Source: Pseudomonas sp. B33.4
GTDB lineage: Bacteria > Pseudomonadota > Gammaproteobacteria > Pseudomonadales > Pseudomonadaceae
Direction: 5' to 3'
DNA: 64,000 nucleotides
NCBI RefSeq assembly: GCF_034555375.1
Contig: NZ_CP140706.1
Span: forward strand, 4,641,001 to 4,705,000
The notes under the pieces were generated by a model. That model saw nothing but the letters and a program-made list of their open reading frames with translations, searched no databases and was not told the origin of the DNA. The translations under genes were made by a program, and so were the position numbers. How positions within the stretch are numbered: the stretch's first letter is position 1; every line of letters starts with the position of its first letter. Positions 50,337-61,469 of the stretch are shown piece by piece.

Positions 50337-51536
50337 TTAGCGCGGCCCTTTTAAATGAAAATAGCGCAAAAATTTATTAAGAACTCTGGAAAAGGTCAAC
50401 TTGAAACCGCCCTCATACATGGAAATTTCAACCAACAACCAGTAATGGGACAAGCGCCTGACGAATCCGCCCCAGGTGGAAATACGAACAGGCTGTATCG
50501 TACTGCTATTCATTAACCTTCCGCCCACTTGAAAAAGAGCGGTCCATTGCGCCGCTACAGTGGCGATATCAAACCGGCGAAGCACATCATTGTATGCGTT
50601 GTCAGCAATGGTAGCCCTGCTCACCTCATCATCTAAATAACGTTCAATAGCAGCGATCCAGCATGCAGCAGTGTTAGATTCCATCAACAACCCAGTTACA
50701 CCATCAACTACAGAACCTACATAACTTTCAGATTGTGTATAAATTCCAGCACATCGAAATGCAGCGTACTCACGATATTTGTTGTTCGTTTTATACTTAT
50801 TAGAATTTTTGTTATCAAGTGGCGCGAGACCTATTTTCCAACCGCGCTGTACTTGAAAGGCTATATATTCAGCATAGCTATTCATATGCCCGAAAAACCT
50901 TACTCTGGCCCCCTGCTCCAACCAGCTGGGCATGCAGCCGATAAATTCAAAAACAACATTGCTTCTTTTCGCGAGTATATGAGGAATCACGTCCTTGAGA
51001 ATATCCAGATCCGCATCACGCGATGGGCTGCCGGCAAATCCGATACGGTATTCCGAGTCTGTACTTACTTCGCACCCAGAAAGTAATGAAAAATCAAAAA
51101 AAGCAGGCAACAGCACCGTATTGCGATTTTTCGGAAGTATGTACTCTCTAAGAGCTACCGAATTGGTAATAACAGTATGCGCTTTCTCCACCGCATACTT
51201 TAGAGAGCGCCGAATAATCGGATGTTTATAGTACTTCGCTAAAGCAGTCTCCCCTTCAATCAACCAAAAATTGTCATCAATATAATAAAAATATGGAATA
51301 TTACTGCGTTTCAACGACTCCATCCAGAAAATCGCAACAGGATCTGCAGTCCGAACAAACAATGGAAGTTCTGAGTTCGATAGAAGCTGCTCATCTATCT
51401 GGGAAAGATATACTTTTTTATATGTAACACCGAGACCAGAACATTCCGAAAGCAACTGCTCAGTCAACTGAGTTGTCGCGATATCCGCCTCGACAATCAA
51501 TAATATATTAACGCTTAAACCTAAATCACTCATCAT
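50337..51536 (-). CDS. Putative glycosyltransferase, sharing a module with the 857-residue protein
   Basis: A 399-residue protein with GT-B-like character. Visible blocks are NIPYFYYIDDNFWLIEGETA (about 98-117), YRIGFAGSPSRDADLDILKD (about 180), and KYKTNNKYREYAAFRCAGIY (about 270), where a nucleotide-sugar binding E/R motif would lie. The same blocks occur in the middle of the 857-residue protein at 52780-55353. No signal peptide or membrane helix is present. Its ATG overlaps the end of the methyltransferase gene by 11 bp. The sugar donor is not identifiable. Confidence 0.72.
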   Translation of the reverse strand: MMSDLGLSVNILLIVEADIATTQLTEQLLSECSGLGVTYKKVYLSQIDEQLLSNSELPLFVRTADPVAIFWMESLKRSNIPYFYYIDDNFWLIEGETALAKYYKHPIIRRSLKYAVEKAHTVITNSVALREYILPKNRNTVLLPAFFDFSLLSGCEVSTDSEYRIGFAGSPSRDADLDILKDVIPHILAKRSNVVFEFIGCMPSWLEQGARVRFFGHMNSYAEYIAFQVQRGWKIGLAPLDNKNSNKYKTNNKYREYAAFRCAGIYTQSESYVGSVVDGVTGLLMESNTAACWIAAIERYLDDEVSRATIADNAYNDVLRRFDIATVAAQWTALFQVGGRLMNSSTIQPVRISTWGGFVRRLSHYWLLVEISMYEGGFKLTFSRVLNKFLRYFHLKGPR

Positions 51537-52770
51537 ATGAAAAATATGCGCACGGAACTAGTTTATTGGGACGCAAAGGCCAACGCGATACCATCGAACA
51601 CTCTACAATTTTGACGCAAGCACCAGATTCTCGACCAAAGAAACGAATGAATGCCACTTCTTCTTGCTGTAGCAAATTTCCGAGAGAGAAACGGACGAGC
51701 CCGATGGTATCAACGCCAGACAATACCGTCGTCGAATTCCATATAATGTCACTACTTTTACCAACCAACTCTATGCCAAGTTGCGCGCCTTTGGTATCAG
51801 CAGACAGGTACACATATACAAAAATAGAATTGCACGGACCGGAGCCTTGAATTTGATATTCAATATACCCTTCGATCGGCACCTCTTTGCTAAGCCGATA
51901 ATCCCTTGGTTTACGAGAACGATAATTTGCCTCAAAATAATCGTCCATGCGTTTCAGGTCTACATCAGGCAGATCAGGACCCACGGTTAGCAATCCAATC
52001 AGCCTTTCATGTCTAAGCAGTTTTGCTTCGCACTCTGCAACATAGTCACGTTGCTCTTTTAGTCGCTTACCTAACAACTCCTCTGCGTATGACACAGTGG
52101 AGAAACCTTCTGCGCTATAAGCTTTGGCCGCGGCTCTGGACTCTTGCAACGCGGGAGTATCCAGAAATGGGTAACCATCCAAATTCTTTGCCAGCTCCAA
52201 GTAACCATTCTCATCATCTTCTTTCCAAACAACGAGATGATAAACAATTTGATGGCAAACATCGGTTAAATGTTGACGCAACTCTCTTTGACAGGAAGGA
52301 TCAATTCGATTGAATTTCGGAAAATAAAAAAACTCCATCCGTAGCAATCGAATTTCCAATCCTGGGTTTGAGTTATCGGATTGCGACAAGCCCCAGCTAA
52401 CTGCATGAGGATGGTAGTACTCTCTTTTGTCAATAGGTGCCCAAGAACAACTCGACCAGAACCTTGGCGTATGTTCGTTAAACACTTGAAGATGGTATGG
52501 ATTGGCTAAGTTTAGTTTCTGCTCGTAATAAGGTACGACAATACAAATCTGAGCTTTATGCTTACAAACTCGATAAAGCTCTTTCATTGTAAATATCAGA
52601 TCGGACACATGCTCCAGGCTGTGAGATGCATGAACAAGCTCAACGGAACTCTCTCCAAAAGGTAGCGGCCTGTCAAGATCCGCTACCACTTGGACACCTG
52701 GCAATGGAAATCGGTCGACACCAATAAATCCAGGAAGACACTTAGGTCCACAACCGATGTCCAGTTTCAT
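51526..52770 (-). CDS. SAM-dependent methyltransferase with a novel C-terminal module
   Basis: A 414-residue protein. The N-terminal class I methyltransferase fold has motif I in LDIGCGPKCLPGFIGVD (about 3-18), the acidic ADLDRPLPF, and VELVHASHSLEHVSDLIF (about 45-62). A helical middle (residues about 230-290, AEELLGKRLKEQRDYVAECE) may be a coiled coil. A C-terminal beta-rich module (about 310-400, GYIEYQIQ, GIELVG, IIWNSTTVLSGVD) is shared with the neighbouring protein. In ABC-exported O-antigens, methyltransferases often cap the chain, so that role is plausible here. ATG 52770 has TAGGTG upstream. Confidence 0.78.
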   Translation of the reverse strand: MKLDIGCGPKCLPGFIGVDRFPLPGVQVVADLDRPLPFGESSVELVHASHSLEHVSDLIFTMKELYRVCKHKAQICIVVPYYEQKLNLANPYHLQVFNEHTPRFWSSCSWAPIDKREYYHPHAVSWGLSQSDNSNPGLEIRLLRMEFFYFPKFNRIDPSCQRELRQHLTDVCHQIVYHLVVWKEDDENGYLELAKNLDGYPFLDTPALQESRAAAKAYSAEGFSTVSYAEELLGKRLKEQRDYVAECEAKLLRHERLIGLLTVGPDLPDVDLKRMDDYFEANYRSRKPRDYRLSKEVPIEGYIEYQIQGSGPCNSIFVYVYLSADTKGAQLGIELVGKSSDIIWNSTTVLSGVDTIGLVRFSLGNLLQQEEVAFIRFFGRESGACVKIVECSMVSRWPLRPNKLVPCAYFSYDE

Positions 52771-52779
52771 AGCCAACAC

Positions 52780-55353
52780 CTATATAGCTAATACTTCCGC
52801 AAAAGGAGATACAGGGATACGTTTCAAACCCGCATAACGATACTTAACAAACTCAAACATGTATACAGGGTGAGCCGCCCGTGCAAACACACGAAGCCTG
52901 TATACCGTTGAAGAGGAAGCTAGGACGTGATCCACAGCAAACTCGACCGGCAAAGACAAGTCCACTCCGTTCAACGCTACAACCCTATTAAGAATAATAG
53001 ACCCGGATGGCCCAATAAGTTCGATACCAACCAGTCCGTCCTGGAGACCGTCCGTAGTAAATGCAATCAAAAAAGATCTGATATTAGTCGCAATGCTCAA
53101 CTCATATTCGATATATGGTACATCATGTAGCGATTTGGATAATTCTAAAACAGCACCAACATTATTACGCTTGACGTCTAGTAAAAACTCTTTCATGCGG
53201 CCGAACTGTGGCATTAAGCTGTCCCACAAATCGTGCTTACGAGACATGAAGCCTAAACGCTTGGAATTCGAGGTTGCCTGTCGTAACCGGGCCAGTTCCG
53301 CCAGACTTTCAATCAGTTTTTGCGGATTTTTTATTGAATCATTACCCGCAACAGCGATATTTCCACCATTACTTCGAGAAATAAGCTTAAGCCTACTTTC
53401 AACGGTAGTAAATCCATTAAAGGTAGTAGAACTGGATATCGAGCGCAACACATCACAACTGATTACGCCGGAGAACTTCTCTTCACAGTACGCTCTATTG
53501 TTCTTTTTAAACATAGAGAACTTAGAAAAATCCAAACTCTCCAACATATCAGACCAAGAACGAGCACTAAACGGTGAAGAGACAACATAACCAACTTCCA
53601 ACTGTTTTAATTCGGAATATGGAAAGTAATCAGGAACCACCAACACTGCGTTCAGTACATTCGCAGACATAGCTACGTTTGTAGTCTTGTACAAATTATT
53701 GATCGACTCACTTGGCGCGTGTATAAGAATATCCGGGCTATATTTAGAAATTTGCAAAAGTGCAGTTTCCCAATTTAGCTCAAACGGCATCGTTATCAAC
53801 TCTAGTCGATCATGCTGCTTAAAGTCTTCAAAAAACTCTGTATTAGCGCCTCCAACAACAAGTTGAATACTTCTACCTGACTCAACATATTTGAGAAATG
53901 CTGGTAGCATGACATCCAGTAGCGCAGACAATCGATGACTACCACCTGCAAACGCGATAACCAACTGTTCGCGCGCAGTAGAAACTTCATCAGTACTTAT
54001 TTTCATGTCTCGAAATGTCGGCGGAAACCACTCAACGTTCGAGTGAAGCAAATGCTCTTTGAAATACTCGAGCAAAGGTAAAGTGCTCGTAAGAACACCA
54101 GAAAAATCTTTGAGTTTATGTCTCAGCGTCTTTTTACTGAAATCCTCGAAACCACTCATTTCCTTGGTTTCTTGAAGAAGTGTCAAGTTGTCATCGGTAA
54201 AGTAATAGCAGGGAATTTGCAGCTTATGTGCCGCATCAATCCACTCAAAAAATGGATCCAACTGCCTGACAAAAATAACACAACTCGCATGTGCAATTTC
54301 TGACAATGGCCAATGCCCTGGGACAATTACGCGTACCCGGCTTTTCCACTCTTCAGGCAAAAAGTCAAATGTAACGGTCGTGCTAGCGCTCGGGTGCGCA
54401 GTCAAGACCAATATTTTTCTTTTTTCATCGGAGTCGATTAATGAACTGGCGATATCAAAATTATTTCTGCTACGAGCATGGGCGAACGCCATCTCTTTAG
54501 CTGCAACGACAGTGCAATGGGTTGTTGTCTGCGGCAGACTGAAAACGTCATATTCTTCAAAGTTTGAAGGCCTGAGAGAAATATCACGCTCCTGCCTGAT
54601 TCTTTCTTCCGAGGCCCAACTATCTAATGCGTATGTTTTACCGAGACTGTCATTGGTCGCAGGGCCGCCAACCTCGCCAACAGAAATATCTACGTAGCGG
54701 AGAATATACTTACGTGAAATCCTTCGCCATAAGTCCCAATCACACACACGGGTCATGAGGATGTGTGGATCGTACAGGCCGATGTCTTCAAGAATAAAAC
54801 GCGGGACCAGCACCGAGTTATTTGCGATGTAGTTCCCGGAATTTATATTGTTATTTGATAAGCTTGCACCTAGGTGCACGACTTGCTCGCCACCGGATCC
54901 AAACTCGACAACTCTCATTTCAACAGAGCCGTAAATCAACTGATCAGGCGTCTTCTGCGCTTCGGTGTATAGATCATGCAATGCATCAGGAAAGAACACG
55001 TCATCATCAAACGCAAACGCTATGTAGCGACCGCGAGACTTGGAATATGCCTCATATTCAGAAACCGCAGGAAGGCCGATGTTTTTCGGATGTCGAAGGC
55101 AGCTCACCCGGCCGTCTTTCTCCATGAACTCCGCAATAATATCAGCACTGCCGTCGGTACTTGCGTCGTCGACAATTATCAGTTCAAGCTCGGTTAGAGT
55201 CTGGCTCAGAACTGATTCGATTGCCTTACGAAACTTACCACTCTTTGCCCGCCTAAAAGTAGGCAGCAAAACGGACACTATCGGAAGTGAACCGTTGCCA
55301 TAGGAACTGCCAGGCAACCATAGAGTTTCGCGAATGAGATCTTTGACTTTCAT
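52780..55353 (-). CDS. Large multi-domain glycosyltransferase
   Basis: An 857-residue protein with three parts. Residues about 23-230 are a GT2 (GT-A) domain: VSVLLPTFRRAKSGKFRKAI, IIVDDASTDGSAD, AFAFDDDVFFPDAL (DxD-like) and VCDWDLWRR. Residues about 310-620 form a second GT-like domain (QIPCYYFTDDNLTLLQETKE; LVIAFAGGSHRLSALLDVML; NNLYKTTNVAMSANV). Residues about 745-850 form the C-terminal module (YIEYELS, GIELIGPSGSIILNRVVALN, GVD). It probably adds more than one sugar, acting as a bifunctional polymer enzyme. Its codon use and AT content differ from core genes. Confidence 0.78.
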   Translation of the reverse strand: MKVKDLIRETLWLPGSSYGNGSLPIVSVLLPTFRRAKSGKFRKAIESVLSQTLTELELIIVDDASTDGSADIIAEFMEKDGRVSCLRHPKNIGLPAVSEYEAYSKSRGRYIAFAFDDDVFFPDALHDLYTEAQKTPDQLIYGSVEMRVVEFGSGGEQVVHLGASLSNNNINSGNYIANNSVLVPRFILEDIGLYDPHILMTRVCDWDLWRRISRKYILRYVDISVGEVGGPATNDSLGKTYALDSWASEERIRQERDISLRPSNFEEYDVFSLPQTTTHCTVVAAKEMAFAHARSRNNFDIASSLIDSDEKRKILVLTAHPSASTTVTFDFLPEEWKSRVRVIVPGHWPLSEIAHASCVIFVRQLDPFFEWIDAAHKLQIPCYYFTDDNLTLLQETKEMSGFEDFSKKTLRHKLKDFSGVLTSTLPLLEYFKEHLLHSNVEWFPPTFRDMKISTDEVSTAREQLVIAFAGGSHRLSALLDVMLPAFLKYVESGRSIQLVVGGANTEFFEDFKQHDRLELITMPFELNWETALLQISKYSPDILIHAPSESINNLYKTTNVAMSANVLNAVLVVPDYFPYSELKQLEVGYVVSSPFSARSWSDMLESLDFSKFSMFKKNNRAYCEEKFSGVISCDVLRSISSSTTFNGFTTVESRLKLISRSNGGNIAVAGNDSIKNPQKLIESLAELARLRQATSNSKRLGFMSRKHDLWDSLMPQFGRMKEFLLDVKRNNVGAVLELSKSLHDVPYIEYELSIATNIRSFLIAFTTDGLQDGLVGIELIGPSGSIILNRVVALNGVDLSLPVEFAVDHVLASSSTVYRLRVFARAAHPVYMFEFVKYRYAGLKRIPVSPFAEVLAI

Positions 55354-55363
55354 GTTCTAGGCC

Positions 55364-56113
55364 TTAGACACTTGCCGAATAATTTTCTGAGTACGCCTTT
55401 AACACTTGGTCTGTTTTGCCATCCATACGGATTTTTCCTTTTTCAAGCCAAATTGTGCGCTCACAGAAATCACTTACCAAATCTGGTGAGTGACTCGAGA
55501 AGACCAGTATCTTCCCTTGAGTCATAAATTTTTTCATACGTTCCTGAGCTTTGTGAGCGAAATTTATGTCCCCCGCCCCCATAACCTCATCTAACAAAAG
55601 AACTTCAGGATTTATCGCGGTAGATACAGAGAATGCCAAGCGAATGAACATACCGGCAGAATAAGTCCGCACAGGATAATTCAAGAATTCACCCAGTTCC
55701 GAAAACTCCGCGATCTCCTGCATTTTGTCTTTAATCTCTCGCGGCTTCAGCCCCAACAAGAGCGCACGAATCTTTATGTTATCCCAACCCGACTGATTCA
55801 TTTCGAAACCTGTCGCAAACTCAAACATAGGACAGACATGCCCAGATGTTTGCGCGCTACCGGAAGTCGTAGGATAAATGCGAGCCATAACTTTCAGTAG
55901 AGTACTTTTACCAGCGCCGTTCAACCCGATCAGGCCGACTCGCTCGCCCCGAGTAATTGAAAGATTAACATTGGAAAGCGCGTTAATTGTGTATTCTTGA
56001 GTATTAGTCGCAGCTGGGCGGCGTAGAATAGTATTCCTTATTCTGCCTACCAAGTCAGTTCGCCCGGTAAATACGACGCTAGCATCTCGTAAAACTACAG
56101 AAATATCGCTCAT
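55364..56113 (-). CDS. wzt: Wzt-type ABC transporter ATP-binding protein, short form
   Basis: A 249-residue ATPase of the polysaccharide-export family. Walker A is GLNGAGKST near residue 62, the signature is VRTYSAGMFIRLAFSVS (the degenerate YSAGM of Wzt/TagH types), Walker B is VLLLDEVMGAGD, and the H-loop FSSHSPD. The protein ends shortly after the nucleotide-binding domain, so the C-terminal carbohydrate-binding domain of the longer Wzt proteins (E. coli O8/O9a type) is absent. Overlaps wzm by four bases. Confidence 0.92.
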   Translation of the reverse strand: MSDISVVLRDASVVFTGRTDLVGRIRNTILRRPAATNTQEYTINALSNVNLSITRGERVGLIGLNGAGKSTLLKVMARIYPTTSGSAQTSGHVCPMFEFATGFEMNQSGWDNIKIRALLLGLKPREIKDKMQEIAEFSELGEFLNYPVRTYSAGMFIRLAFSVSTAINPEVLLLDEVMGAGDINFAHKAQERMKKFMTQGKILVFSSHSPDLVSDFCERTIWLEKGKIRMDGKTDQVLKAYSENYSASV

Positions 56114-56907
56114 AGCATATAAACCACTTTCTTATCCATTTTAGATGCAAGCACCAAGCAAACAAGCCACAGAACTGATAGATAAACAGCGCAAAACATA
56201 TAATCCTGTTTCACTGCAAATGTCCCTTCCAGAATCGGAAATCTAATTACATCTACCAGGTAATACAATGGATTATATTTATAGACAAAGTCCAGACCAC
56301 GATCCTTGAGCATCGTAACGGGGAACATGATAGGCGTTACAAAAAACAGTACCTGGAAAATTCCCGTCAAGGCATGGGGCAAATCTCTAAAACGAGCAGA
56401 GAGATATGCGCTAAGTGTGATGTGCCCCAATCCAGCTATAAGAAGTATTCCAACTCCGGGCAATGCGTACAGCCACCCCATGGGATTAAAGCGATCAAAG
56501 AACAACAAAGTCCCTGCCAAAGCTACAACACCAACCAACATTACTGCAAACAGAGAAACCAGCACCCGAAACAGATATATTTGCTTCGGGAAAGAAAATT
56601 GTTTGATGTAACCTTCGGAACCTACAAACGCATATCCGCCTTCGACGAAGGAGGAAACCAAGAATCCCCAAACTATCAAGCCGCACGTGAGATAGGGAAG
56701 AAACTCTGCCATCGGTTGCTTAAGCAGTACTCCATAAACCACCCCTGCGCCTAAAACCATCATTGCAAGGTTTATAAGTATCCATAGTGGTCCGATAGCA
56801 GACCTGCGGAAGCGAGCTTTGACGTCCTGCAGCCCTAGGTATAGCCATACACGCCACTCAAGAAGCGACTTTAATGCATTGGGTAAAAAACTATTCTGAC
56901 TGATCAT
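56110..56907 (-). CDS. wzm: Wzm-type ABC transporter permease for polysaccharide export
   Basis: A 265-residue inner-membrane protein of the ABC-2 family with six hydrophobic segments (for example LWILINLAMMVLGAGVVYGV and VLVSLFAVMLVGVVALAGTL) and the conserved cytoplasmic amphipathic start SLLEWRVWLYLGLQDVKARF. With Wzt it flips the finished undecaprenyl-linked O-polysaccharide. It directly follows the acetyltransferase gene, with no gap, and its last bases overlap wzt. Confidence 0.92.
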   Translation of the reverse strand: MISQNSFLPNALKSLLEWRVWLYLGLQDVKARFRRSAIGPLWILINLAMMVLGAGVVYGVLLKQPMAEFLPYLTCGLIVWGFLVSSFVEGGYAFVGSEGYIKQFSFPKQIYLFRVLVSLFAVMLVGVVALAGTLLFFDRFNPMGWLYALPGVGILLIAGLGHITLSAYLSARFRDLPHALTGIFQVLFFVTPIMFPVTMLKDRGLDFVYKYNPLYYLVDVIRFPILEGTFAVKQDYMFCAVYLSVLWLVCLVLASKMDKKVVYML

Positions 56908-57402
56908 CTAAAGCCTATTTAGCTCAAGCACTATTAATTTACCGTTACGGGAAACTTCGTTGAAGCCCAGCTTTTCGTATAACTTAATCGCCCTGACGTT
57001 TTCTTCCAGAACTTCTAGAAATACGCTCTCAAGCGCAAGCTGCTGCCAACACGTTTCAATCAACAGTTGGCAGCCTCGCTTGATATAACCTTTACCCGCG
57101 TTGTCTGGCGCTGCAAGAAAGCGCCCGACTTCGGCGCGCTTTCTCTGCAGATCCACGCCATAAACAGCGCATTGCCCAACCAACTCACCATCTGCCGCGA
57201 TGACGAACACAAAATCATCAGACTTTTTTGAATAGGACTCGAACCACTTTACGTGACTGTCCCATTCAATGATGTTTGAGTTAATAAACCACCGGCGGTT
57301 TTCGTCTCGGTTTCGCCAGTCCAGGGTCGACTGTAAATCAGCCACCTCCAGTAGACGGATCTCGACGACTTCATCAGATGTTGAGTGGAGGGTAGGTTTC
57401 AT
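56908..57402 (-). CDS. GNAT-family N-acetyltransferase for an amino sugar
   Basis: A 164-residue acetyltransferase of the RimJ/PseH-like GNAT group. The acetyl-CoA loop is seen in GRFLAAPDNAGKGYIKRGCQ near residue 93, and NVRAIKLYEKLGFNEV near 135 is the typical end. Its start overlaps the aminotransferase stop by four bases. This coupling suggests that it acetylates the amino sugar made by that enzyme, as in dTDP-Fuc4NAc or Qui4NAc synthesis. The exact sugar is unknown. Confidence 0.85.
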   Translation of the reverse strand: MKPTLHSTSDEVVEIRLLEVADLQSTLDWRNRDENRRWFINSNIIEWDSHVKWFESYSKKSDDFVFVIAADGELVGQCAVYGVDLQRKRAEVGRFLAAPDNAGKGYIKRGCQLLIETCWQQLALESVFLEVLEENVRAIKLYEKLGFNEVSRNGKLIVLELNRL

Positions 57403-58526
57403 TTTGCGTACTTGGCTACCAATTGAGATACGGTGTCTACATCGGCCTTACTGAGGCCCATGTGTACCGGGAGCGAGATAATTTCCTGGGATGCCAATGC
57501 TGCCTTAGGGCAGGTGCCATTACCATGCGCATACATACGATACTCCGTGTTATCACGGTAATGTACGCCTGGGTATACCTGGTGTTCATTGAGGGCCAGC
57601 ATCAGCTCTTCACGGTTTTTGACACGAATTTGCACAAGGTGAGTCGACGACTCACATTCTGGATTAATTTCAATAAAGCGTACTTTATCGTTACCTTCCA
57701 GGTTTTCGCGATACCACTTGGCGAGCTGGCGACGGTAAGCGTTATCACGATCCAGGTACTTCAATGCAACCAGGCCCATGACAGCCATGATCGAGTTGCC
57801 GTGGTATTTGAAGCCGACTTCTTCAACATCGTACATCCACTTGTACGCGCCCTGAGCGGCAGTACGAGCGTAAGTATCCTTGTTGATACCTAACCAGCTC
57901 ATCTTGCGTACGCGCTCGTCATCTTCCGCATTTTTGAAGCAGATCATGCCCGAATCGGCTGTTGCCAGGTTTTTTACAGCCTGGAAGCTGAACACCACTA
58001 CGTCCGCTTCTGGGCATACATGACGCCCATTGATGCGAGTACCCGACATGTGGGCAGCGTCTAGAATCAAAGCAATGTTACGTGCTTTGCAAATTTCCAG
58101 GATTTTCGAGTATTGACCGACGTTGCCACCAATACCTACGAAAATCAGCGCCTTGGTCTTGTCGGTGATGCGCTGCTCTACGCTGACAGGGTCCAGACAC
58201 AGCGACTCGTCAACATCTGCGAATACTGGTGTCAGGCCTGCGCAGAGAATGGCGTGGTTGGTCGATACGAAAGTCAGTGGAGTCGTAATGACTTCTGCAT
58301 CATCGCCCCATCCATTTTTTGTCTTGAGCAAGCGGAAAGCCAGTTCCAGACCTACGGTGTTCGACGAAAGAAAATGTGCGTGCGGCAGCCCGGTATAGGA
58401 CTTCCATGCTTCTTCCATCTCAACAGTTTTAAAACCTAACCCAGTCCAGCCTTTCTCAAGACATTCACGAATACCTTCAAGGCATTCGTCGACACGAAAT
58501 TTAGGTACAAACAGTTGAATTGACAT
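57399..58526 (-). CDS. DegT/DnrJ/EryC1/StrS-family sugar aminotransferase
   Basis: A 375-residue PLP enzyme. The lysine forming the internal aldimine is in VVVFSFQAVKNLATADSG near residue 185; the cofactor-binding aspartate is in LILDAAHMSGT near 155. The N-terminal region has FLSSNTVGLELAFRLL near 52. It transaminates a keto-sugar nucleotide, most likely the 4-keto-6-deoxyhexose made by RmlB, but a 3-keto sugar is possible. It follows rmlA by about 100 bp, and the linked acetyltransferase supports an N-acetylated product. Confidence 0.9.
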   Translation of the reverse strand: MSIQLFVPKFRVDECLEGIRECLEKGWTGLGFKTVEMEEAWKSYTGLPHAHFLSSNTVGLELAFRLLKTKNGWGDDAEVITTPLTFVSTNHAILCAGLTPVFADVDESLCLDPVSVEQRITDKTKALIFVGIGGNVGQYSKILEICKARNIALILDAAHMSGTRINGRHVCPEADVVVFSFQAVKNLATADSGMICFKNAEDDERVRKMSWLGINKDTYARTAAQGAYKWMYDVEEVGFKYHGNSIMAVMGLVALKYLDRDNAYRRQLAKWYRENLEGNDKVRFIEINPECESSTHLVQIRVKNREELMLALNEHQVYPGVHYRDNTEYRMYAHGNGTCPKAALASQEIISLPVHMGLSKADVDTVSQLVAKYAK

Positions 58527-58630: not shown

Positions 58631-59518
58631 TCAATGACTCTCGTGTTCCAAGAGGCGCTTGAGATACTTTCCGTAGCCGTTTTTGATTAATGGCATGGCT
58701 AACGCGAGCAACTGCTCGTCCGATATCCATCCCTTTCGCCATGCCAACTCTTCAGGGCATGCGACCTTAAGGCCTTGCCGGTTTTCCAGGGTCGCAATGA
58801 AATGACTCGCCTCTAGCAGAGACTCATGAGTCCCTGTATCCAGCCAGGCATATCCCCTTCCCATGATTTCTACCGAGAGGTTGTTACGCTCCAGATAGAC
58901 TCGGTTCACATCCGTGATTTCCAACTCGCCACGCTCAGAGGGTTTGATACTTTTGGCAATTTCGACGACATTTGCATCGTAAAAATAAAGGCCGGTCACG
59001 GCGTAGCTGGATTTAGGCTCTGCCGGTTTTTCTTCCAGACTGATAGCTTTGCCCGACTTGTCAAACTCAACCACGCCATAGCGCTCAGGGTCATTCACGT
59101 GATATGCAAAGACACTTGCACCGCTGTCACGCTGCATGGCATTTGCCAAAAGTTCCTGGAAGTCGTGTCCATGATAGATGTTGTCGCCCAGCACCAAAGC
59201 ACACGCATTACCGTCGAGAAATTCCTCGCCAATAATAAATGCCTGGGCTAAGCCATCCGGTGACGGCTGAACCGCATAACTCAGATTGATTCCCCACTTG
59301 GCACCGTCACCCAAAAGCTGCTCGAAGCGAGGGGTATCCTGTGGCGTGGAGATAATCAATATATCTCTGATCCCTGCCAGCATTAATGTGCTGAGAGGAT
59401 AATAAATCATCGGCTTATCAAAAACCGGAAGCAACTGCTTCGATATTGCGAGTGTTGCTGGATGCAGACGCGTACCAGAACCACCCGCTAGAATTATACC
59501 TTTACGATACATAATCAT
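58631..59518 (-). CDS. rmlA: RmlA, glucose-1-phosphate thymidylyltransferase
   Basis: A 295-residue nucleotidyltransferase making dTDP-glucose from dTTP and glucose 1-phosphate. The signature is [20 protein letters not shown] at the N-terminus, followed by [20 protein letters not shown] and [13 protein letters not shown] near 110. Start 59518 (ATGATTATG) overlaps the rmlD stop by four bases. It is the feedback-regulated first enzyme of the dTDP-6-deoxyhexose pathway. Confidence 0.96.
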
Positions 59519-60414
59519 CCCTGCCTGGCCATATCAGAAAGCGTTCTTTTTACATAAGTCTTCCAATCCGGAATATTTATATTGAACGCATTTTGAATTT
59601 TACTATTGTCCAGTCTTGAGCTTTTCGGCCGGACTGCTTTCGTAGGATACTCAGAACCACTCACAGCACGTATATCGTGCTCTGTACAGTTAAGAGGAAT
59701 CCCTAGATTTAATGCCTCTGAAACCAAATAGCGGGCATACTCATACCAGCTCGCATACCCCGAAGAAACCAAATGGTACGTACCACTAAGAGCCTCGGCC
59801 CCCGTACCATTCAGAATTCGATATAGGCAAAGCACGGTAGCATCCGCAACGAGCGAAGCACTCGTCGGCGCACCGGCTTGATCATCCACGACCGAGAATT
59901 CTGACTTGGTTGCCGCGAGGTTCAATATTGTTTTTGCAAAATTTCGCCCCCGCGTGGAATAAACCCAGCTGGTTCTAAGTAAAAGATGATTGCAGCCACT
60001 ACTAACAACCGCACCCTCGCCCAATGCTTTGGACCTACCATATGCATTCAACGGATCAGGGGCATCAGTCTCTCTGTAGGGAAGTTCGGAGGCGCCGTTA
60101 AAAACATAATCGGTTGAATAATGTACAAGCCACGCATTATTCTCCGCCGCGTAGTCAGCCAGCACTTTCACCAAATGAAAGTTAATTGCCTGCGCGTCAT
60201 CTTCGCAGGTCTCTGCCAGCTCAACGGCGTTATAGGCAGCCGCATTGACAATAACGTCGGGGCGTTCTTGACGAAGATAGTCCGACACAGCATCTAAATC
60301 AGCCAGGTCAAGTTTACTTCGATCGCTAGCCACAACGTTCCCAAGCAAAGGCAGGGAACGCTGCAACTCCCAGCCTACTTGTCCGTAACTTCCAAATAAA
60401 ACAATTTTCTTCAT
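59515..60414 (-). CDS. rmlD: RmlD, dTDP-4-dehydrorhamnose reductase
   Basis: A 299-residue SDR reductase. NAD(P) binding is in [20 protein letters not shown] at the N-terminus, and the active-site tyrosine-lysine is in [12 protein letters not shown] near 128 after [10 protein letters not shown] near 105. It produces dTDP-L-rhamnose from the keto intermediate, which needs the RmlC epimerase, whose gene is not found in this window. It is coupled to rmlB and rmlA by four-base overlaps. Confidence 0.93.
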
Positions 60415-61469
60415 GTGTACTGCCTGCTTACCCAATCACGATAAGCTCCGCTAGTGACATTACCTACCCACACCTGATTATCGAGATACCACTCGACAGT
60501 CTTCCGGATACCGGTCTCGAATGTTTCCGCCGGTTTCCAACCCAACTCACGCTCAAGTTTCCGAGCATCAATGGCATAACGACGATCGTGACCCGGGCGA
60601 TCGGTAACATAAGCGATCTGCTGGTGGTAAGGTTGGCCATCATCGCGGGGGCGCAACTCGTCGAGCAAACCGCAAACGGTGTGAACGATGTCGAGATTAG
60701 GCTTCTCGTTCCAGCCGCCTACGTTGTAGGTCTCTCCGAGCAAACCAGCTTCAAGTACGCGGCGAATAGCACTGCAGTGGTCTTTGACGTAGAGCCAATC
60801 GCGAATTTGCTGGCCGTCGCCATATACCGGCAGAGACTTACCGGCAAGGGCGTTGACGATGATCAACGGAATAAGCTTTTCCGGAAAATGGTACGGACCG
60901 TAGTTGTTCGAGCAGTTGGTCGTCAGAACAGGCAAGCCATAGGTGTGGTGGTAAGCACGCACCAAGTGGTCACTTGCAGCCTTGCTCGCCGAATAGGGAC
61001 TGTTCGGTTCGTACTGATGGGTCTCGGTGAACGCGGGATCATCTTTTGCCAGCGACCCATAAACCTCATCGGTGGAAACATGCAGGAAGCGGAACGCCTC
61101 TTTGGCGCCCTGTTCGAGCCCCCCCCAATAAGCGCGCACTGCTTCCAATAGTCGGAACGTCCCGACAATATTGGTTTCGATGAAATCTTCCGGACCGTGA
61201 ATTGACCGGTCGACGTGGGATTCAGCGGCGAAATTGAGGATCGCACGAGGCTGGTGCTCATTTAGCAAGCGTGTTACCAGCGCACTATCACCGATATCGC
61301 CCTGCACAAATACATGCCGCGCATCCCCGTCCAGACTTGCCAGGCTTTCCAGGTTCCCGGCGTAGGTCAGCTTGTCCAGGTTGATTACCTGTTCATCCGA
61401 CTGCGCCAGCCAGTCCAGTACAAAGTTCGCCCCGATAAAACCGGCACCGCCGGTGACTAAGATGGTCAT
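60411..61469 (-). CDS. rmlB: RmlB, dTDP-glucose 4,6-dehydratase
   Basis: A 352-residue SDR dehydratase converting dTDP-glucose to dTDP-4-keto-6-deoxyglucose. Visible are [20 protein letters not shown] at the start, [20 protein letters not shown] near 130, and [20 protein letters not shown] with the active tyrosine and lysine near 165. The keto product can feed both RmlD (through RmlC) and the aminotransferase downstream. The gene starts the rmlBDA group, five bases after the glycosyltransferase gene. Confidence 0.96.

Follow-up and report, generated by a model that had tools for sequence, protein, structure and literature searches.

In a 64,000-nucleotide stretch of Pseudomonas sp. B33.4 (contig NZ_CP140706.1, positions 4,641,001 to 4,705,000; hereafter the window), a methyltransferase (MT) and a large glycosyltransferase (GT) encoded side by side in an O-antigen locus end in homologous C-terminal parts of ~120-150 residues, with a similarity well beyond chance. 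This part, here termed the module, was classed as an unnamed β-sandwich end domain of a terminator-like O-antigen architecture that is also carried by the large GT of the locus. Both open reading frames (ORFs) lie on the minus strand where the sequence-only reading of the window had placed them. The GT (52780..55353; 857 aa) comprises a GT2 domain (Glycos_transf_2, E = 1.5e-22 at residues 27-151), a GT4-like middle and the C-terminal module. The MT (51526..52779; Methyltransf_11, E = 1.1e-5, residues 31-79), likewise with the module at its C-terminus, has 417 aa if started at an in-frame GTG at 52779 or 414 aa if started at an ATG at 52770. The ATG is the likelier start, also in the sequence-only reading, because three close relatives start at the matching position (414 aa); MT residue numbers are nevertheless counted here from the GTG. 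The catalytic parts belong to separate, unrelated Pfam families, Methyltransf_11 and Glycos_transf_2, in agreement with the earlier reading.

The two window tails are only ~25% identical. Their local BLOSUM62 score is 99, whereas 5000 shuffles of the GT tail gave a mean of 26.8 (standard deviation 4.6, maximum 58). The profile comparison proposed with the earlier reading was performed in hhalign using 19 GT tails and four MT tails and returned a probability of 96.2% and an E value of 2.3e-9 over 62 columns. Whole-protein profiles, too, aligned best tail to tail, pairing GT residues 700-826 with MT residues 261-384 (E = 5.9e-7); the similarity therefore begins in the helical stretch ahead of the β domain. 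The motifs that had been described as common to both proteins are all present (YIEY, GIEL(I/V)G ~30 residues later, IIxN, L(S/N)GVD and VxF), except that S-x-I-I-x-N was slightly misquoted: the MT has S-S-D-I-I-W-N and the GT has S-G-S-I-I-L-N, giving the common pattern S-x-x-I-I-x-N.

Structure prediction gave agreeing folds for the two tails, namely helices followed by a β-sandwich of 11 strands (GT) or ten strands (MT), in line with the strand-rich fold anticipated from the sequence. In the GT (model m5f26f8d8fefd; mean predicted local distance difference test score, pLDDT, 87.6; predicted template modelling score, pTM, 0.82) the predicted module spans residues ~735-857 (52783..53151, minus strand; strands 41-162 of the model) and is preceded by helices with an LWxSxxPxF..K motif at residues ~697-732 (53158..53265, minus strand; helices 3-36). 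In the MT (model m7d0604c6975d; mean pLDDT 84.5, pTM 0.81, with low confidence over the first 14 residues) it spans residues ~293-417 (51529..51903, minus strand; strands 39-160) behind a helical stretch at residues ~256-285 (51925..52014, minus strand; helices 2-12 and 18-31). The input alignments held 34 (GT) and 33 (MT) sequences; P0008, P0029 and P0030 were left out (A4), and A5 additionally left out P0007. The fold matches of the tails include CBM6, CBM15, CBM35 and CBM36, which are carbohydrate-binding modules (CBMs), but also phage and capsid proteins, and from these matches the module is tentatively read as a jelly-roll-like domain. Identity between the tails and the CBM jelly rolls in those matches is 5 to 16%, and the CBMs, judged by their structure titles, sit mostly on polysaccharide-degrading enzymes, unlike the module. 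Neither Wzt_C structures nor WbdD are among the fold matches listed, which excludes neither relation. Six of 155 alignment columns are invariant (G, E, R, F, V and E), among them charged residues. Judging from strand limits, R and the second E of this set probably lie opposite one another in a hairpin, in the GT model as well as in the MT model.

The earlier statement that the module has no known name still stands, since no named family covers the tails in Pfam, NCBIfam or PDB sequence comparisons. Searched with the tail profile, the PDB gave no sequence hit up to E = 10; in Pfam, 14 members matched no CBM or other family apart from DUF4876 in one of them (E = 0.24). No description of the module was found by title or abstract start in the open-access literature, where it could bear a name under other terms, as it could outside that literature.

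A survey of carriers showed that the module is not private to the window pair: it also occurs in 14 MTs with long linkers (here called rod-type), one of them from a second genome of the genus (G297), and in one Chloroflexota protein. Relatives of the GT tail formed 18 clusters among 642 candidates, all of 856-858 aa, and relatives of the short MT numbered three among 58 candidates, all of 414 aa. The longest contig given for one GT cluster (P0006) has 15,728 bases, as has that given for one MT cluster (P0020), the sole hint that the two tails co-occur outside the window. The G297 carrier is a 647-aa protein that has a related MT domain (53% identity over 198 residues) and a long linker ahead of the C-terminal module. 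A search with this tail gave 14 matches among 801 candidates, the weakest at E = 5.5e-25 and one being the record of the G297 protein itself. These 14 proteins have 591-790 aa, with Methyltransf_11 in all of them (precomputed annotation), a linker of 224-425 residues and the module at the C-terminus. The Chloroflexota protein, from a metagenome-assembled genome (MAG) of Candidatus Aquidulcis (L030:5145-9803), has 1552 aa; its MT is followed by at least eleven 14-residue repeats, and the module forms its C-terminus. The window GT tail was matched by tblastn to the G297 protein with 55.8 bits (30% over 151 residues) and to the Chloroflexota protein with 60.8 bits (29% over 140 residues).

Genome searches were run with profile A2 (eight of 19 GT tails and three of four short-MT tails) and profile A6 (four GT, three short-MT and six of 14 rod-type tails plus L030; the same rows make up the three class profiles). 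Only three or ten candidates were scored per genome, and the genome counts are hence lower bounds. Among 398 genomes of the genus, the profile search found two carriers, the window's own and G297. Profile A2 matched one of 398 phylum genomes (the window's own), and profile A6 one of 144 relatives of G297 (G297 itself). In 274 class genomes profile A6 matched the window's own genome and G1048. The G1048 match (E = 4.2e-4) was discarded because the surrounding gene, judged by reading, looks like a cation-efflux transporter. A match in G051 (E = 1.2e-4), which has two internal stops and by the same kind of reading lies in no fitting gene, was dropped as well. Within the window's genome the module profile finds two places only, the MT and GT tails. 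G297 has a single match, on the MT-type protein, and the Chloroflexota genome has one with profile A6, which was built with that sequence included. The MT alignment, run against species genomes, gave 21 loci, one of which is that of the Chloroflexota protein described above. In 18 of the others, from Paenibacillus and close kin, the open frames have 226-473 aa and no tail was seen by eye; L022 gave no frame, and that of L011 reaches the contig end. The latter (L011:3898-8334, a Bryobacteraceae MAG) encodes a close relative of the MT (58% over 189 residues), preceded in the same frame by glycosyltransferase-like sequence; the contig breaks off just where a rod or module could begin.

The linkers were scored for heptads in seven of the 14 rod-type proteins and in L030, using simple weights of our own; four control stretches from other domains gave z from -2.5 to 1.0. 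All seven rod-type linkers tested are coiled-coil-like. The linker of the window MT is short (51 residues as cut) and scored z = 1.9, with eight of 200 shuffles as high, which falls short of a long coiled-coil ruler. That of the Chloroflexota protein scored z = 1.5 (11 of 200 shuffles as high) despite its repeats, which are near-perfect and contain two heptads each. The 14-residue units may possibly represent an extendable ruler. A Fourier test of 3.5-residue hydrophobic periodicity showed no significant signal for most of the 15 proteins with a long enough linker, between 3 and 76 of 100 shuffles scoring as high. The Chloroflexota ORF also holds pyruvyltransferase, GT2 and sulfotransferase domains.

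Profile-profile comparison of the three classes of tail paired GT with rod-type tails at E = 3.8e-20 (143 columns), GT with short-MT tails at 3.8e-9 (91 columns) and short-MT with rod-type tails at 1.3e-8 (139 columns). The LWxSxxPxF..K motif is common to the GT and rod-type tails. In a tree of 33 rows, from which P0007, P0008, P0028, P0029 and P0030 were left out, the GT tails form one group (99/98) beside the Chloroflexota tail (94/96), and the short-MT tails form another on a branch of 5.3 changes per column. The module had earlier been proposed to be duplicated or recruited. A local duplication is not shown, because the GT tails match the rod-type tails better than the adjoining MT tail. 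Similarity favours a rod-type MT tail as the source of the GT copy, with the caveat that the long short-MT branch could mislead. That branch is also what weak constraint would produce and, together with a common fold and so few invariant positions, would suit a domain that merely caps protein ends or stabilizes oligomers without any ligand. We consider such a cap improbable, as the module is kept across phyla on homologous MTs and is found on an unrelated enzyme of the same locus.

The ATP-binding cassette (ABC) exporter of the locus bears on the possible function. Its ATPase, Wzt (55364..56113, minus strand; 249 aa, ABC_tran), does not match PF14524 (Wzt_C) at E up to 1, and the nearest NCBIfam model is galactan Wzt/RfbE (246.8 bits, under the cut-off of 400). 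Wzt_C is absent from the Wzt of the locus in all three module-bearing loci examined (window, G297 and Chloroflexota). Like the module, Wzt_C is a β-rich end domain encoded in ABC-exporter O-antigen loci; it is fused to the transporter ATPase, whereas the module is fused to the MT and the GT. The shared pathway and β-rich character, and the three Wzt proteins without Wzt_C, would suit a diverged Wzt_C domain transferred from the transporter to the enzymes. We regard this origin as very improbable: none of 14 members matches PF14524 in Pfam at E up to 1, and comparison with a profile of 17 Wzt_C stretches gave E = 0.05 when all tails were pooled and values of 0.58 to 0.83 when each of the three classes was taken separately. 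L037 is out of frame in this set, and two of the 19 matches (L048 and L049) were unused. As a control, two halves of the set match each other at 2.2e-30, but four of ten properly cut single stretches missed the other half (E = 0.002 to 0.23), and a very diverged Wzt_C would therefore escape detection.

The preferred explanation, which we hold tentatively and at somewhat less than even confidence, is that the module binds glycan and keeps both enzymes on one lipid-linked chain. The CBM-like fold neighbours, the polymer common to both enzymes and a Wzt that lacks Wzt_C speak for it. The earlier suggestion of a carbohydrate-binding or docking domain that holds both enzymes to the same polymer is supported in part. 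The enzymes that end in the module act on O-polysaccharide and come from a single kind of ABC-exporter locus. Outside the GT/MT pair type of the window, most homologues seen are terminator-like proteins with the order methyltransferase, coiled-coil rod, module; in the window lineage the MT is nearly rod-less and the large GT carries a copy too. In the proposed mechanism the GT presumably extends chains and the MT presumably terminates them, so that tethering both to the same lipid-linked chain would direct elongation and methyl capping to a single polymer. A module on the enzymes may then replace some of the recognition given elsewhere by the C-terminal domain of Wzt. A broader version is rather unlikely: a new enzyme-borne family of glycan-recognition domains, in which reading of the Wzt_C type is built into the terminator and, here, into the chain-extending GT, and which lets a ruler-less MT act on the right polymer.

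The locus of G352, which is module-less, encodes a 250-aa Wzt that, judged by its length, also lacks Wzt_C; its MT is more distant (40% over 192 residues, 283 aa), and the genome search found no module match there. In G297 another Wzt, which does carry Wzt_C, is encoded ~13 kb away from the one lacking it, and their contig is also that of the rod-type MT. Both cases count against a causal link between the module and an absent Wzt_C. The module follows the rod in the rod-type relatives, at the place where, in the portions of PMC11231755 and PMC3482155 consulted, WbdD recruits its polymerase, and it is present on both neighbouring window proteins. These two points favour a close rival, which we hold a little less probable than glycan binding. 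In it the module would be a protein-protein interface through which the GT assembles with the MT, or several MTs with one another, where the complex lies near the membrane. The charged residues within the small invariant set, with the R and E that probably face each other in the hairpin, would also be compatible with such docking. The low identity of the two window tails argues against it, as do the two rod-type loci read, in which the GT has no module to pair with; the neighbouring GT in G297, for example, has 1076 aa and a further GT4 domain near its end.

The gene order on the minus strand of the window is rmlB, rmlD, rmlA, DegT aminotransferase, GNAT acetyltransferase, Wzm, Wzt, 857-aa GT, MT, a 399-aa GT4-like enzyme and an NAD-dependent epimerase. 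The G+C content is 43-45% between the 399-aa GT and Wzm, compared with 60% over the first 43 kb of the window. The permease Wzm (56110..56907) is nearest to the NCBIfam model of galactan Wzm/RfbD (162.4 bits, under the cut-off of 380), the GNAT acetyltransferase (56908..57402) matches Acetyltransf_3 (E = 3.8e-18) and PseH (79.5 bits, under the cut-off of 93.1), and the DegT-family sugar aminotransferase (57399..58526) matches DegT_DnrJ_EryC1 (E = 6.7e-77); all three are on the minus strand. The 399-aa GT4-like enzyme (50337..51536, minus strand; Glyco_trans_1_4, E = 3.4e-7) is without the module, and the middle of the 857-aa GT (residues 360-559) is distantly related to it (26% over 214 residues, E = 7.7e-10). 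The genes rmlA, rmlD and rmlB lie at 58631-61469; no rmlC was seen in the ORF list for this locus, and the genome was not searched for it. The window's genome (6.6 Mb, one contig) encodes a separate Wzt with Wzt_C elsewhere, at 6.56 Mb, and the second ABC exporter of G297, with the Wzt that bears Wzt_C, lies at G297:C149:39813-41189 (L010:11913-13289).

Relatives of DegT, GNAT, Wzm, Wzt and the MT occur together in G297 (79, 52, 52, 62 and 53% identity, respectively) and in the Chloroflexota locus (63, 41, 43, 53 and 54%), where Wzt is ~9 kb away from the MT protein. In Paenibacillus (L012:6123-8681) DegT, GNAT and the MT adjoin (64, 34 and 51%), without rod or module. As relatives of DegT, GNAT and the MT are kept together across these loci, the pathway in which the MT acts may be one that makes an amino sugar with methyl and N-acetyl groups, and rod plus module may mark its exporter-linked version. 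DegT is 63-64% identical to that of the window across phyla (Chloroflexota MAG and Paenibacillus).

For several ABC-exporter systems, a ruler-bearing terminator and a cap-reading transporter account for O-polysaccharide length and export. Here, rod-type and rod-less terminator-like proteins have a common unnamed end domain, a large GT can carry it and the transporter of the locus is without a reader. If the module binds glycan, polymer recognition can reside on enzymes; if it docks enzymes, it would be a natural, movable interface for such complexes. The portions of PMC3482155 and PMC11231755 consulted describe WbdD as having a rod that sets length and, past it, a membrane-associated C-terminal region that recruits the polymerase, with a domain of Wzt reading the cap. 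As far as these sources extend, the window MT shares with WbdD-type terminators (Escherichia coli O8/O9a, Klebsiella pneumoniae O3/O5) an N-terminal methyltransferase and an ABC-exporter locus, and the WbdD layout is matched by the 14 rod-type relatives, with MT, long linker (coiled-coil-like where tested) and C-terminal end domain. The module occupies the place of the polymerase-recruiting region. Unlike WbdD, as described there, the window MT is almost rod-less, ends in a β module and has no kinase domain matched in Pfam, and the Wzt of the module-bearing loci lacks the Wzt_C used in the described WbdD systems. By sequence comparison, no WbdD chain is among the three PDB matches of the window MT at E up to 1. 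The same portions of PMC11231755 state that CBMs had not previously been found in other terminators, and report for the K. pneumoniae O7 terminator ORF6-O7 a methyltransferase, a coiled coil and a predicted β-type CBM in one protein. Compared by this description, the predicted CBM of ORF6-O7 is immunoglobulin-like and lies ahead of the coiled coil, which leads to GT2 modules (PMC11231755), whereas in the proteins described here the module comes last.

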